57,446 nucleotides of DNA. It comes from Myxococcota bacterium (GTDB lineage Bacteria > Myxococcota_A > UBA9042 > DTJE01). A model generated the notes under the pieces. The model had not been told where the DNA came from. It was given only the letters and a program-made list of their open reading frames with translations, and did not search any database. Each line of letters begins with the position of its first letter. The first letter of the stretch is position 1. A program made the position numbers and the translations under genes. The stretch covers positions 1 to 57,446 of the forward strand of contig JAGOKF010000017.1 of the NCBI GenBank assembly GCA_017994695.1, read 5' to 3'. Positions 35,253-42,110 of this stretch are shown here, piece by piece.

Positions 35253-37478
35253 TCAGGGGTCCGGGATTTCCCGGACCAGGGCCAGGGCCCCGGCCTTGTC
35301 CATCGGCTGGTTGTCGTTGCCGCAGCGCGGGGACAGGCAGCAGGAGGGACATCCCTTCTCGCACCGGCAGGTCCCCAGGACCTCCCGGGCCATCCGGATC
35401 ATCCGGGGGAGGTCCTGGAAGGCCCGCTCCGACAGGCCGATGCCCCCCTCCCACCCGTCGTAGAGGAAGACGGCGGGGCCCCCGGTGTCCTCGGAGACCA
35501 GCGTGCTGAAGCCCGCCAGGTCCGCCGGGTCGCAGTGCAGCGCCAGGGGGGCAAGCCCCACCAGGACGTGCTCCAGGGCGTGGAGGGCCCCCAGGAGATC
35601 CTCGATTCCGGGCCGGGGACCCGGGGCCAGGTCCAGCCGGATCCCGACGGTCTGGAAGGTCCGCTGGGGCAGGTCCAGGTCCTCCCGGCCGATCACGTGG
35701 TCGTGGCGCTTCCGGAGATAGCCGGTGACCTGCCAGGTCATCTCCAGGTCTCCCAGGGACGCCTCGAAGGGACCGAGGGACCGGCGGTCCCGGGGAGGCC
35801 GGGACCGGGCCGTCTTGTCGGTGATCGCCACGGTCCAGTAATCCACGTCCTGCCTGCGGACCACGGCCCGGGACCCCGGGAGGTCCAGGTGCTCCACGCG
35901 CCAGGTGCGGCCGCCGTGGAGGTAGATCGCCCCGGGGAAGGCCTCCCGGAGGGCCCGATCGAGGTCGAGGGTCTCCAGCACCGATCCGTCCAGGGCGTCC
36001 TCCAGCACGACCTGCCGGTCCCCGATGCGGTCCAGGCGCACCGCGTCCTGGGGCCGGGTGAGCCCCCCGTGGACGAAGCCCGCCGAGGTCCGGCGCAGCA
36101 GCCCCTGGCGGGCGAGGCCCTCGGCCATTCCGGCCGCCAGGGGGTCGTCTGCCGGCTGGACCGGCAGCTCGGTAGCGGCGCACAGCAGGTGGCCCGCGAC
36201 GACGTGGGGATTCCGGAGGTCGATGGTCGCCCGCTCCCAGGCCCGATCCAGCAGCATCTCCGGGTGGTGCAGCAGGTACTGGTCCAGGATGTCCGGGAAG
36301 GCGAGGAAGATCCCCAGGGAGGGCCCCCCCCGGCGCCCGGCCCGGCCCACCTGCTGCCAGAACCCGCTCTGGCTTCCGGGCCAGCCGGCCACGATCACCG
36401 CGTCCAGGTCCCCGACGTCGATGCCCAGTTCCAGGGCCGTGGTGGACACCACGCCCCGGAGGCGACCCTCCCGGAAGTCCCTTTCGAGGGCCCGGCGCTC
36501 CTCGGGGAGATAGCCCGCCCGGTAGGGCGCGATGGGGAGTTCCCGTCCCCGGCGGTCCTGGGCCACGAGGCTCGCGATCCACTCGGCCCCCCGGCGGGAC
36601 TGGGTGAAGCACAGGGTCTTCAGGCCCTCCTCCACCAGGCGGCACAGCAGCGTCCTGGCCAGGACGAAGGGGGACGGTCCCTCGGGGCTGCCTCCGTCCC
36701 AGAACACCAGGATCCGGGGGCCGGCCCCGGCACCGTCCCGGTCGATCACCGAGGCGGGGCGCCCGGTCAGGGCCCGGGCGTGTTCCGCGGGGTTCGCGAT
36801 GGAGGCCGATGCGAGGACCCACCCCGGGCGGCCTCCGTGGGCCCCGATCACCCGGTCCAGCCGTCGGAAGACCTGGGCCACGTGGGATCCGAAGAGGCCG
36901 GTGTAGCGGTGGGCCTCGTCCACCACGACCATCCGGATCCGGGAGAAGAAGCGGTGCCACTGGTGGTGGTAGGCCAGGGCCTCGTGCATCTCGTAGGGGT
37001 TGGTCAGGACGACCCGCGACTCCTGGCGGATGCGGGGCCGCCGTGTCCGGGGCGTGTCCCCGTCATAGACCGCCGGTTGCAGTTCCAGGCCCGACTCCCG
37101 GTCGGCCCGCTGCAGCACCGTCCACTGGTCCTGGCTCAGGGCCTTCAGGGGGTAGAAGAGCATCGCCGTGGCCTCCTCGTCCCGGGCCAGGGCCTCCAGC
37201 AGGGGCAGCAGGAAGGCCCAGGTCTTTCCCGAGGCGGTCGGCGTGCACAGGAACAGGTTCTCCCCGGCCCGGAAGCGTTCCAGGGCCTCGGCCTGGTGCC
37301 CGTACAGGGACGGGAATCCGAAGCGATCCAGGGTCCGCCGCACCGCCGGGTGCAGGTCCGCGGGCAACGGCACCAGGGAGGGAGGGCTTCCCGGGATCCG
37401 GAAGATCTGCCGGTGGCATGGACCGAGCAATGGGTCCTGGCAGGTCCGTTCCAGGGCGGCGTCGATGGGCGGGGTCAC
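35253..37478 (-). CDS. DEAD/DEAH-box helicase with DUF1998 domain, MrfA-like
   Basis: The 741-residue SF2 helicase has the Q-motif region PSLYGHQAEALE, Walker A CTPTASGKTW, the DEAH box VVVDEAHRY, ASASIANP, and motif VI QQVGRAGRRG. The C-terminal DUF1998 module ends in a Cys cluster (GTCRCEKGCPSCC) that in relatives binds metal. Bacillus YprA/MrfA, with the same layout, unwinds DNA in mitomycin-adduct repair together with the exonuclease MrfB. Here the MrfB-like gene lies directly upstream and the start GTG overlaps its stop (GTGA), so the pair is coupled. The gene is convergent with recA. Confidence 0.9.
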   Translation of the reverse strand: MTPPIDAALERTCQDPLLGPCHRQIFRIPGSPPSLVPLPADLHPAVRRTLDRFGFPSLYGHQAEALERFRAGENLFLCTPTASGKTWAFLLPLLEALARDEEATAMLFYPLKALSQDQWTVLQRADRESGLELQPAVYDGDTPRTRRPRIRQESRVVLTNPYEMHEALAYHHQWHRFFSRIRMVVVDEAHRYTGLFGSHVAQVFRRLDRVIGAHGGRPGWVLASASIANPAEHARALTGRPASVIDRDGAGAGPRILVFWDGGSPEGPSPFVLARTLLCRLVEEGLKTLCFTQSRRGAEWIASLVAQDRRGRELPIAPYRAGYLPEERRALERDFREGRLRGVVSTTALELGIDVGDLDAVIVAGWPGSQSGFWQQVGRAGRRGGPSLGIFLAFPDILDQYLLHHPEMLLDRAWERATIDLRNPHVVAGHLLCAATELPVQPADDPLAAGMAEGLARQGLLRRTSAGFVHGGLTRPQDAVRLDRIGDRQVVLEDALDGSVLETLDLDRALREAFPGAIYLHGGRTWRVEHLDLPGSRAVVRRQDVDYWTVAITDKTARSRPPRDRRSLGPFEASLGDLEMTWQVTGYLRKRHDHVIGREDLDLPQRTFQTVGIRLDLAPGPRPGIEDLLGALHALEHVLVGLAPLALHCDPADLAGFSTLVSEDTGGPAVFLYDGWEGGIGLSERAFQDLPRMIRMAREVLGTCRCEKGCPSCCLSPRCGNDNQPMDKAGALALVREIPDP

Positions 37479-38563
37479 GGGACCTCCCCCGCCCTCTCGG
37501 CCAGGGCGACCCACAGGGCCACGGTGTCCAGGAGATCCAGGCGGTTGTGCCAGACGATGGCCGCTAGCAGCCCCGCGGCCTCCTCCGGATCCCGCAGATA
37601 CTCCTGGTACAGCACGGGAACCAGGGCCCCGGGGAGATCCTCGGCCCGATCGCGTCCCAGGACCTCCCGGGCCAGCGTGGAAAGACGGGCGTCGGAGGCC
37701 GCCTCCCGGAACGCCCGGCGGGCCGGCGGCAGCAGGTCCACGTGGGCCGGGTCGAAGGGCCAGGGATGGCCCCAGTAGGAGGCCCGGCCGCAGAGGCAGG
37801 GCCAGTCGAAGGACCGGCCGTTGAAGGTCAGGACCACCCCGGTCCGATCCATTTCCCGGGCCAGGGCTTCCACCAGGGCCGGTTCCCCGTCGGGGCCCGA
37901 GACGACCCACTGGACCACGCGGATTCGGCCCTCTTCCGGCCGGGCGGTGCCGGCCACCACGATGGGACTGCCCCCGAACAGGCCGCCGGTCTCGAGGTCC
38001 AGCACGCACAGGTCCCCGGGGTCCCCCAACAGCGGAATCGCCGCCACCAGGGGGGATGAGGGACCCAGCCGCCGGGCCAGCTGCCCCGCCAGCCAGGCCA
38101 CGTCCCCCCGGTCCAGGTGCCGCAACCAGGACCGGGCATGACGGCCGAACCGGGGGTGTTCCCCCAGGTCCTCCAGGGCCCCGATCCCCCCCCGGCGCAA
38201 CCGGTCCGCGGTCCGTTCCCGGATGCCGGGGATCGCCTCCAGCAGCCCCCCGAGCCGGCGACGCAGGGCCTCGGGCGGGCACCGCGGCGGGAGGAAGTCC
38301 CGGGTCTCCTCGACCCGCCAGAGGTCCGGGCCCGCCCGGGAGGTCCCGGGGCCCAGCAGGTCCCCGAGGGGGCGTCCCCGTCCCCGGTCCAGCCAGGATC
38401 GCCGAAGCCGATCCCCGTCAGGCGAGGGGGAAGCCGGGACCGGGACCGCCCGGGAGTCCCCGAGGCGGGGCCCGCGGCGGGCCAGGTCCCCGTCCCTCTG
38501 GCGCAGGGCCTCCAGCCGCTCCCGCAGCAGCCGGGCCACCTCGTCCTTTCGATCCGCCGGCAT
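37475..38563 (-). CDS. RNase-H-fold 3'-5' exonuclease, MrfB (YprB)-like
   Basis: The 362-residue protein has a helix-hairpin-helix-like stretch (AIPGIRERTADRLRRGGI) followed by a DEDD-type nuclease domain: CVLDLETGGLFGG (ExoI Asp/Glu), LTFNGRSFDWP (ExoII-like), HVDLL, and a late IVWHNRLDLLDTVAL holding the last His/Asp pair. This is the YprB/MrfB arrangement. It is translated with the MrfA-like helicase downstream. GGAGG lies eight bases before the ATG at 38563. The pair probably acts in repair of DNA adducts, by analogy with Bacillus. Confidence 0.88.
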   Translation of the reverse strand: MPADRKDEVARLLRERLEALRQRDGDLARRGPRLGDSRAVPVPASPSPDGDRLRRSWLDRGRGRPLGDLLGPGTSRAGPDLWRVEETRDFLPPRCPPEALRRRLGGLLEAIPGIRERTADRLRRGGIGALEDLGEHPRFGRHARSWLRHLDRGDVAWLAGQLARRLGPSSPLVAAIPLLGDPGDLCVLDLETGGLFGGSPIVVAGTARPEEGRIRVVQWVVSGPDGEPALVEALAREMDRTGVVLTFNGRSFDWPCLCGRASYWGHPWPFDPAHVDLLPPARRAFREAASDARLSTLAREVLGRDRAEDLPGALVPVLYQEYLRDPEEAAGLLAAIVWHNRLDLLDTVALWVALAERAGEVP

Positions 38564-38607
38564 CGGACGTCCTCCCGGGGCATCATGCAGACCGTCGCCG
38601 GGCCGGG

Positions 38608-39952
38608 TCAAGGGGATCCGGGGCGGCCGGGGGTCGGGTCCCTGGGACGCAGCGCCGCGATGCCGAAGCGGCCCGCCAGGGAGGGTGGGATCCCGTGGCA
38701 GTAGCGGTCCTGGGGGCAGCCCCGGCAGGCCCGGGCCTTCACCCGCCGGTCGGGGGCGGGGGGCACCGGGGATTCCGGGTCCAGGTAGTCGATGTCCGTT
38801 CGCGGCGCCATGCCGGCCAGGTCTTCCGGGGTCGGCAGCACCGGCGCCGGGTCCCGGAGGATGCACAGGGGCGGCGCGCAGTCCCCGAGGAAGGGGTCCA
38901 CGGTCCGGTCCAGGGCCCGGCAGGCCTCGAGGGCCCGGTCCAGGGCCGGCCCCATCTCCTCGAGCGGCACGGCCAGGTCGGGGGCCTTCCGGTGGCCCAC
39001 CTCGTTCATCATCGTCAGGAAGAAGGTCGCGGCGTCGTCCGAGGGGCCCAGGATGTCCGCGACGAATCGCACCGTGTCCGGGAGGTCCGGGAGGTTCAGG
39101 CGGGTCAGCACCACGTTCACGGTGACGGCCAGGGGGGGCATCGCGGCGGCCAGGTTCCGGAGGCCCTGGACGGCCCGATCGAACTGCCTCCGGCTCCGGG
39201 TGATCCGGTGGTACACCTCGGGGCGATGGGAATGGAAACTGACCAGGACCCGGCGGACGCCCAGGTCCCGGATCTCGAGGACCCTCTCCGGGTCGGCGAA
39301 CCGGACCCCGTTGGTCTGCAGCCCGATCCGGGCGGCTCCCAGGTCCCGGAGGGTCCGCAGCAGGACCGTGAAGCGGGGATGGATCGAGGGCTCCCCGCCG
39401 GTCAGCATCACCTGGTCGGTATCGGGCCGGAGGATCGGCCGAAGCAGGTCCGGCAGGTCCGCCGGGTCCAGGCGCCTCGGTCCCAGCCGGACGAAGCAGA
39501 AGGGGCAGCGCTGGTTGCACCGGAACTCCACCCGCAGGAGCAGTTCCCGGCTGCGCCCCCCCCCCGATCTCGATCCACCGGTCGGTCCCGGTCTCCCGGC
39601 GTTCCTCGGAATGTTCGGGCAGGTCCACGCCCAGGGGCATTCCGGGACGAAGCCGCTCGGGCAGGGAGTCCAGCGCCCGCAGCAGCCGCTCCATCTCGTC
39701 ACCCGACAGGACGACCCCCGGCGCTTGCCGGTAGCGGATGCGGAACCCCTGGGCCTCCCGGTAGAAGGCCTCTCCCGGAAGGACGCCCGGCGGGAGCACC
39801 TCCACCAGGAACCGCGGGTTCGATCCGGGATCGGATCGTGCCTCCACGAGGAGTCCCGGCCCCGGAGGCAGCATGCGGACGAAAAATCCGGCCGCGGCCA
39901 GAGCCTCTTCAAGACATTCCCGGCAGGTGCTGGAAGCCAGGCGGCCCTCCAT
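38608..39952 (-). pseudogene. Radical SAM enzyme gene split by a frameshift at a G10 tract
   Basis: Two open frames together make one plausible protein of about 447 residues. The first 130 codons run from ATG 39952 (MEGRLASSTCRECLEEALAA) to the homopolymer; the remainder, in another frame, holds the radical SAM core FRCNQRCPFCF (C-x3-C-x2-C for the iron-sulfur cluster), VMLTGGEPSIHP, and a Cys-rich tail (CAPPLCIL, CRGCPQDRYCHG) like an auxiliary-cluster domain. Nine Gs instead of ten (39556-39565) would restore the frame. No other damage is visible, so phase variation or a base-calling error fits as well as decay. Substrate is unknown. Confidence 0.75.
39556..39565. repeat. Homopolymer tract of ten C/G
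   Basis: Ten consecutive C (plus strand) lie inside the radical SAM gene exactly where its two frames meet. Confidence 0.9.
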
Positions 39953-40007: not shown

Positions 40008-41174
40008 CTAGTCCCCCATCAGCAGCGTCATGTCGTCCATCTCGTCCAGAGAGACCCCGTGCCTGCGGAACTCTCGCACCAGGATCTCCCGGGTCTCCTG
40101 CGCGAAGGAATCGGTCATGGCAAACTCGAGTCGGTGCTGTCGATACAGCGGCGCGACCCTGTGCAGGGCGTGCATGCGGTCGATGCGAGCCGCCCGGACC
40201 ATCGGGGCCAGGCGCGAGACCAGGCCCATCGGGTCCATCGGGAGCATGGGCTGGATCACCACGAAGGTCGTGATGCCCTCTCGATGCAGTGTCTCCAGGG
40301 CCTCGAGGCGGTCCTCGATGGGGTCCGCTCCCGGCTCGAAGAGGGCCCGCATCCGGTCGTCGTCGGTGGGAATGGAGAAGCCGACCGCGATCCGCCGGAA
40401 GCGTCGGAACAGGTCGAGGTCCCGGAGCACCAGCGATGCCCGGGTCAGGATCATCGGTGCAAAGCCGGTTCCGGCCAGGACCTCCAGGCAACCCCGCGTG
40501 ATGCCGAATCGCCTCTCGGCCGGCTGGTAAGGATCGGTCAGGACGGGACTGAATCGGACCGGTCCCGGTGGATATCGCCCGACCTCTTCCGCAAGGACCT
40601 GGGGGGCGTTGACCTTCACGTCAAGCCACCGGCCCCAGGGCAGGGCGGGGAGCCCCTCCAGTTCCCGGGCCCAGTCGGCTCTCTCGGCCACGAAGCAGAA
40701 ATCGCAGCCGATCAGGCAGCCCGAATAGGGATTGACGTAGTACTGGCCCAGACCTTCGGGAATCAGCACCCGATCGACCTTCACCGAACGGACCAGCGAC
40801 TGCCGACTGATGGTCAGGCGGTCGGGCTTCTCGAAGGAGGCCTCGAAGGCAAGGACCCTCTGCACCACCCGTTCCAGCATTTCCAGCCCCGCGGCGTCCA
40901 GAGGCCGGGACCCGAAGGGCCACCACAGGGTCACATCGAACCACCTCGTGCGGGCATGGAAGGGTCGGCGATCGTCGGGACGTTCCAGTTCCACGACCAG
41001 GATCCGGTCCCCGTTGCGAAGGGTCAGGGAGGGGCCCTGCTCCGACTCCCAGGTGACAGCCTCCCAGCCTGCGGGCAATGCCCCCGGAGCGAAGAGAGGG
41101 GAGAACAGGTCCCGGACGAGGTCGTCCAGGAAGCGCGATCCGGGGAGGGGGATTTCCGGTGGTCGGTTCGGCAT
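40008..41174 (-). CDS. Radical SAM protein of the SplB/Rv2578c group (COG1533)
   Basis: The 388-residue protein has the cluster motif NPYSGCLIGCDFCF (C-x3-C-x2-C) and the group marker WLDVKVNAPQVLAEEV, followed by FSPVLTDPYQPAER and ILTRASLVLRDLDLF, which form the barrel. Spore photoproduct lyase is the best-known relative, but this protein lacks the full set of SPL residues, so repair of thymine dimers is only a possibility. About 100 N-terminal residues form a separate domain (TWESEQGPSLTLRNGDRIL). The ATG at 41174 is preferred as the start of conserved sequence. It is 55 bases upstream of the frameshifted radical SAM gene. Confidence 0.85.
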   Translation of the reverse strand: MPNRPPEIPLPGSRFLDDLVRDLFSPLFAPGALPAGWEAVTWESEQGPSLTLRNGDRILVVELERPDDRRPFHARTRWFDVTLWWPFGSRPLDAAGLEMLERVVQRVLAFEASFEKPDRLTISRQSLVRSVKVDRVLIPEGLGQYYVNPYSGCLIGCDFCFVAERADWARELEGLPALPWGRWLDVKVNAPQVLAEEVGRYPPGPVRFSPVLTDPYQPAERRFGITRGCLEVLAGTGFAPMILTRASLVLRDLDLFRRFRRIAVGFSIPTDDDRMRALFEPGADPIEDRLEALETLHREGITTFVVIQPMLPMDPMGLVSRLAPMVRAARIDRMHALHRVAPLYRQHRLEFAMTDSFAQETREILVREFRRHGVSLDEMDDMTLLMGD

Positions 41175-41227
41175 CGCGACCGTCCCCTTCAGCCGGATTC
41201 CAAGTATCCGTGTCGCAAGGATGCCGG

Positions 41228-42110
41228 TCAAGGAAGAGTGGAGTCCACGGACGTGGTGCAAGGAGACGTCTTTCGGAGCGAAGCGACGATCGAACGAGCC
41301 CCCGCCCGCGAACGGACCACGAAGGTTGGCCGAACTCCTCCACGGCCAGGGGTCACGGCCGACCGCAGTCCTCCCGGTCGCCCCCGGGCCCGATCCTGGT
41401 CCGGGAGGTGGATCGCCAGGGCCCCGTCCTCCAGGGAGGCGTCGAAGACGTCCAGTTCCTCGACCACGACGTCGGTCCAGGCCCCACCCTCCTGCCCGGC
41501 CCGATCCCGGACGACGTAGGACAGTCGGTGACTGCCCCGAGACAGCACGACGCCTTGCAGCGACTCCCCGGTCCCGAGGGGACCGTCCCGGTCCGACGAC
41601 CAGGAGCCCGGGGCCAGCATCTCTCCTTCGGGGTCGTAGGACTCACCCCGCAGGGTCCAGGGTGTCCCCGGCGCCGCCCGCGTCCCCGGGTGCCGGCCAG
41701 GCCACCCGGACCACCGGGGGCCGATCGGGGGCCCGGAGATGGTCCACCTGGTCCTGGGCAGTCCGGATGCCGTCCGTGGCCAGAACCCGGATCGACACGG
41801 TCCCGCTTCCTTCCAGGAAGCCCGCGTCGAAGGTCGCCGAGTTCCCCTCCACGGTCCCGGACGCCTCGACGAAGGCCTCCGTCCCGGCTGAACTGGACGC
41901 GGTACTGGACCTGCTGGTGGAAGGGCACGATCCCCCCGGGATCCGCCGTCTCGGAATCCCCGCCGTCCCACCGGACCTCGAAGGTGCCGTCCAGCAGGGC
42001 CCCGGGGGACGGGCCGTTCCCCGCCGATTCGATCATTCCCCAGGTGAAGATGCGGCGCACCGGGGCCCCGGCAGGCGATTGACAGGGGGCCCGTTCTGCC
42101 TCTATGAGGA
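41228..42110 (-). pseudogene. Decayed gene with Ig-like (PKD/cadherin-type) domains
   Basis: Three minus-strand frames carry one continuing protein. The first piece (about 42110-41880) reads GTFEVRWDGG and VQYRVQFSRDG. A shift near 41880 leads to GSGTVSIRVLATDGIRTAQD. A shift near 41660 leads to SYDPEGEMLAPGSWSSDRDG, then PLGTGESL and SRGSHRLSYVVRDRAG. The last block is typical of Ig-like repeats in large surface proteins of myxobacteria-like genomes. There is no credible start codon, and the upstream end abuts the divergent DUF819 gene. I read this as the tail of a truncated surface protein. Confidence 0.6.

Follow-up and report, generated by a model that had tools for sequence, protein, structure and literature searches.

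A radical SAM gene split between two frames at a ten-base G tract in a Myxococcota genome: a probable length error or chance mutation

We find that a radical SAM gene in the assembled genome of a Myxococcota bacterium is divided between two reading frames at a run of ten G residues, and we consider it very probable that this break is an isolated discrepancy in homopolymer length, either a miscall or a recent non-adaptive slippage indel, at a tract that is not a switch. An error or a chance mutation is favored because the break is isolated, relatives of the gene are intact and free of the tract, the gene shows no decay, and long tracts mark weak points of the assembly. The case is an ordinary one. 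The features concerned lie within the window, that is, the whole 57,446-nucleotide stretch of DNA analyzed, and are as follows (the sister is a related metagenome-assembled genome described below).

39566 to 39952, minus strand: 129-codon N-terminal part of the gene, starting at ATG (from the translation; homologous to the N-terminus of the sister ORF, L010:1132-2457).
39556 to 39565, minus strand: G10 homopolymer, the junction of the two frames (from the tract position, the sister comparison and the frame scan).
38608 to 39555, minus strand: radical SAM part with PF04055 and a stop at 38608 (from the ORF, its translation and the PF04055 match).
37475 to 38563, minus strand: downstream exonuclease-like gene (from the ORF, with a Met at 38563; the sister orthologue also follows the gene).

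The tract reads as C10 on the plus strand at 39556-39565 and therefore as G10 on the coding minus strand. By translation, the N-terminal frame runs on the minus strand from 39952 to 39566, ends in TDRWIEI and then enters the tract, while the radical SAM frame runs on the same strand from 39564 to 38608 and begins GGGRSRELLLRVEFRCNQRCPFCF. As an earlier note had claimed from the letters alone, the two parts meet exactly at the ten identical bases, with their frames one base out of step. A codon-usage frame scan places strong coding signal on both sides of the tract (scores 29.8 and 32.7), in different frames of one strand. GC makes up 72% of the window, and Markov models (orders 1 to 5) predict between 0.4 and 7.5 runs of at least ten bases, of which one was seen. 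The G10 run is thus not above chance expectation, and it is the frame break that is unusual. The shifted frame meets no stop and stays open for 825 codons (ORF 37475-39952, minus strand). From the N-terminal part it passes through the radical SAM region out of frame and reaches the exonuclease-like gene in frame; it stays open because a GC content of 72% leaves few chance stops. If the G10 length is real, the exonuclease frame is the one that the N-terminal part enters. The break is read from the assembled length only, and the wording "switched off" used earlier for the gene is therefore too strong.

In the radical SAM part, a PF04055 match (E 1.4e-25) is accompanied by the CxxxCxxC motif, present as CNQRCPFC; both this motif and a C-terminal Cys-rich region are intact. 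No NCBIfam model reached its cut-off for this part, and an identity as MoaA (GTP 3',8-cyclase) is not supported, with TIGR02666 scoring 74 bits against a cut-off of 284. The N-terminal part (39566-39952) has no Pfam or NCBIfam match, and its PDB matches are all weak, the best at E 0.035. An N-terminal extension at the same place with this type of radical SAM protein is also seen in MAGs of Deltaproteobacteria and Elusimicrobia. We also considered the radical SAM part as a separately translated gene and rejected this, as the two parts are fused in relatives and inspection by eye found no convincing start.

The closest comparison comes from the sister (G001; MAG JPNA_maxbin.075, Deltaproteobacteria), the only other species compared within the genus. 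Its orthologue is 81% identical, and at the site of the tract it reads GGC GGA GGA CGC (GGCGGAGGACGC), which encodes the same Gly-Gly-Gly-Arg without a homopolymer. The sister gene is a single intact ORF, 441 codons long and starting at TTG, and neither the sister nor any other homologue examined has a tract at all. Homologues in a further genome (G012), in another deltaproteobacterial MAG (L075) and in several Elusimicrobia MAGs carry the N-terminal extension and the radical SAM part in one frame, with no G tract at the junction in any of these. This one-frame arrangement holds for most homologues examined; the L077 homologue lacks a recognizable N-terminal part, and the L083 homologue is cut by the start of its contig. 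Since the sister and the distant homologues are single-frame and tract-free, these comparisons suggest that the ancestral gene was most likely a single ORF and that the G run is confined to the present lineage. No second copy of the locus, whether paralogue or strain variant, was found in the same assembly.

On the reading proposed here, the gene is an unexceptional radical SAM gene, encoded together with an N-terminal domain as one ORF. Its three consecutive Gly codons, GGC, GGA and GGA in the sister, are all GGG in this lineage, giving a long G run by composition, and the assembled length of that run is one base out of frame.

The earlier note had also raised the possibility of a phase-variable contingency locus, in which replication slippage turns the gene on and off. 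The length and position of the tract would permit reversible switching, but neither the sister nor any homologue has the tract, its length does not exceed what composition predicts, the product resembles a cytoplasmic radical SAM enzyme, and the other coding tracts of both genomes are in frame; we give this explanation very little credence. The related idea of a new lineage-specific poly-G slippage site in an uncultured deltaproteobacterium, at which the gene would be phase variable or dependent on RNA slippage, possibly with an alternative fusion of the N-terminal part to the exonuclease, seems to us highly improbable. Were the length both real and variable, a radical SAM enzyme of an uncultured lineage would be under the control of a poly-G switch.

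Both parts of the gene appear to be maintained. Against the sister, the N-terminal part is 67.5% identical with a dN/dS of 0.39, and the radical SAM part 81.5% identical with a dN/dS of 0.30; this comparison revealed no other frameshift or stop in the gene. These sequence comparisons show purifying selection on both sides of the tract, and the gene, if broken at all, has not long been in decay, although dN/dS spans the whole divergence of the two species and is compatible with a very recent loss. The observation that the gene is otherwise undamaged, including the cluster Cys residues, therefore holds: there is no second lesion.

Preserved selection would also be expected if transcriptional slippage at G10 gave a fraction of in-frame mRNA, leaving the gene partly active despite its DNA. 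There is precedent in disrupted ORFs rescued by slippage at runs of nine A or T bases, termed "pseudo pseudogenes", and the same work takes conservation of the run among homologues as the mark of purposeful slippage (PMC1088944). Homologues do not share the G10 run, the precedent concerns A/T runs rather than G runs, and the explanation presupposes that the DNA tract length is real. Slippage rescue, another of the options first proposed, is thus possible in principle, with the lack of conservation counting against programmed use, and we regard it as very improbable here.

The second branch of the favored reading, next in likelihood after a miscall, is that a real, recent one-base slippage insertion inactivated the gene in the sampled strain, making it a young pseudogene without regulatory meaning. 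G10 is a known type of mutable sequence, and so recent an event needs no time for decay. The surroundings of the gene bear on this reading. Compared with the sister, the window carries an inversion of about 31 kb between 8.8 and 39.9 kb (8808-39928), flanked by collinear sequence from 0 to 8.6 kb and from 42.1 to 52.7 kb, and one breakpoint of this inversion lies at most about 60 bp from the 5' end of the broken gene. The gene therefore has a different upstream region from its sister orthologue. The gene immediately upstream (about 40008-41261, minus strand) resembles PA0069/Rv2578c radical SAM proteins, below family cut-offs, and the sister lacks an equivalent gene at this position. The breakpoint could be a reason for relaxed selection on the gene, and it is the chief point in favor of a real mutation. 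Against this stand the undamaged state of the rest of the gene and the fact that assembly is least reliable at long G tracts; on balance, we consider a young pseudogene unlikely, while taking it seriously.

The other long tracts of the genome provide a control for the isolation of the break. The assembly contains 43 G/C tracts of at least nine bases (34 of nine, eight of ten and one of eleven), and we applied the codon-usage frame scan to 41 of these, omitting two at contig starts, and to the 33 tracts of the sister. Across the two genomes, 27 tracts lie clearly within a gene and in frame, and a clear break was seen at one, that at 39556-39565. A second ten-base tract, a C tract at C92:16099-16108 (L061 1501-1510), also seems to join two frames of one helicase-like gene, and the signal to the right of the tract is weaker; this gene has no close homologue among 16 related genomes. 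Both suspected breaks thus fall at tracts of ten, and none is clear at tracts of nine. The apparent break at the second tract lends some weight to a young pseudogene and is a counterpoint to a sequencing error, as it could mean that slippage is real.

The positions of the long tracts point to the assembly itself. Five of the nine tracts of at least ten bases are found 150 bp or less from a contig end, where about 0.1 would be expected (binomial P ~3e-8), as do eight of all 43 (about 0.5 expected; P ~4e-8); the contigs with a long G/C tract at an end are C2, C20, C65, C94, C96, C113, C129 and C144. This enrichment indicates that the assembly is prone to failure at long runs of G, and other homopolymer-related calls in it deserve suspicion. 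The pile-up fits a loss of read quality and would also fit true length heterogeneity in the population. Short-read consensus errors at ten-base tracts are uncommon given good coverage. Illumina indel rates, which may not be those of the platform used for this genome, climb steeply with homopolymer length, by about 1,000-fold per base over lengths of 2 to 15 (PMC3334598), and most singleton frame transitions are expected to stem from sequencing errors, not from true indels, where the gene has a full-length homologue (PMC3711429). Several marks of such an error are present: full-length homologues are intact, the gene has no other damage, and, indirectly, the assembly is unreliable at such tracts, as the five of nine near contig ends illustrate. 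We therefore infer that the tract length was probably, though by no means surely, miscalled during sequencing or assembly. Among the three options put forward for this locus, error is the best supported, given an isolated break, tract-free relatives and contigs that end at long tracts, while the absence of the tract from relatives speaks against a contingency locus.

More broadly, these results advise caution in calling contingency loci or pseudogenes from just one draft assembly when the genome has 72% GC. Most of the question is settled by inexpensive controls: a sister species, the other coding tracts and how far the tracts lie from contig ends.

Like the poly-G contingency loci of Campylobacter and Neisseria, the radical SAM gene has an intragenic poly-G tract of about ten bases whose length sets the frame; unlike them, its tract is not conserved, it does not stand out as a surface or modification gene, and the other coding tracts are in frame. 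It shares with the "pseudo pseudogenes" a one-base frame offset at a slippage-prone run and single-ORF homologues elsewhere (PMC1088944), but the run here is of G rather than A/T and the case is known from DNA alone. The gene also resembles the singleton frameshifted genes of the GeneTack class (PMC3711429): although an error would here be read from assembled sequence and not from raw reads, the gene has in common with that class a homopolymer break that occurs as a singleton and is not conserved, together with full-length homologues in a single frame.
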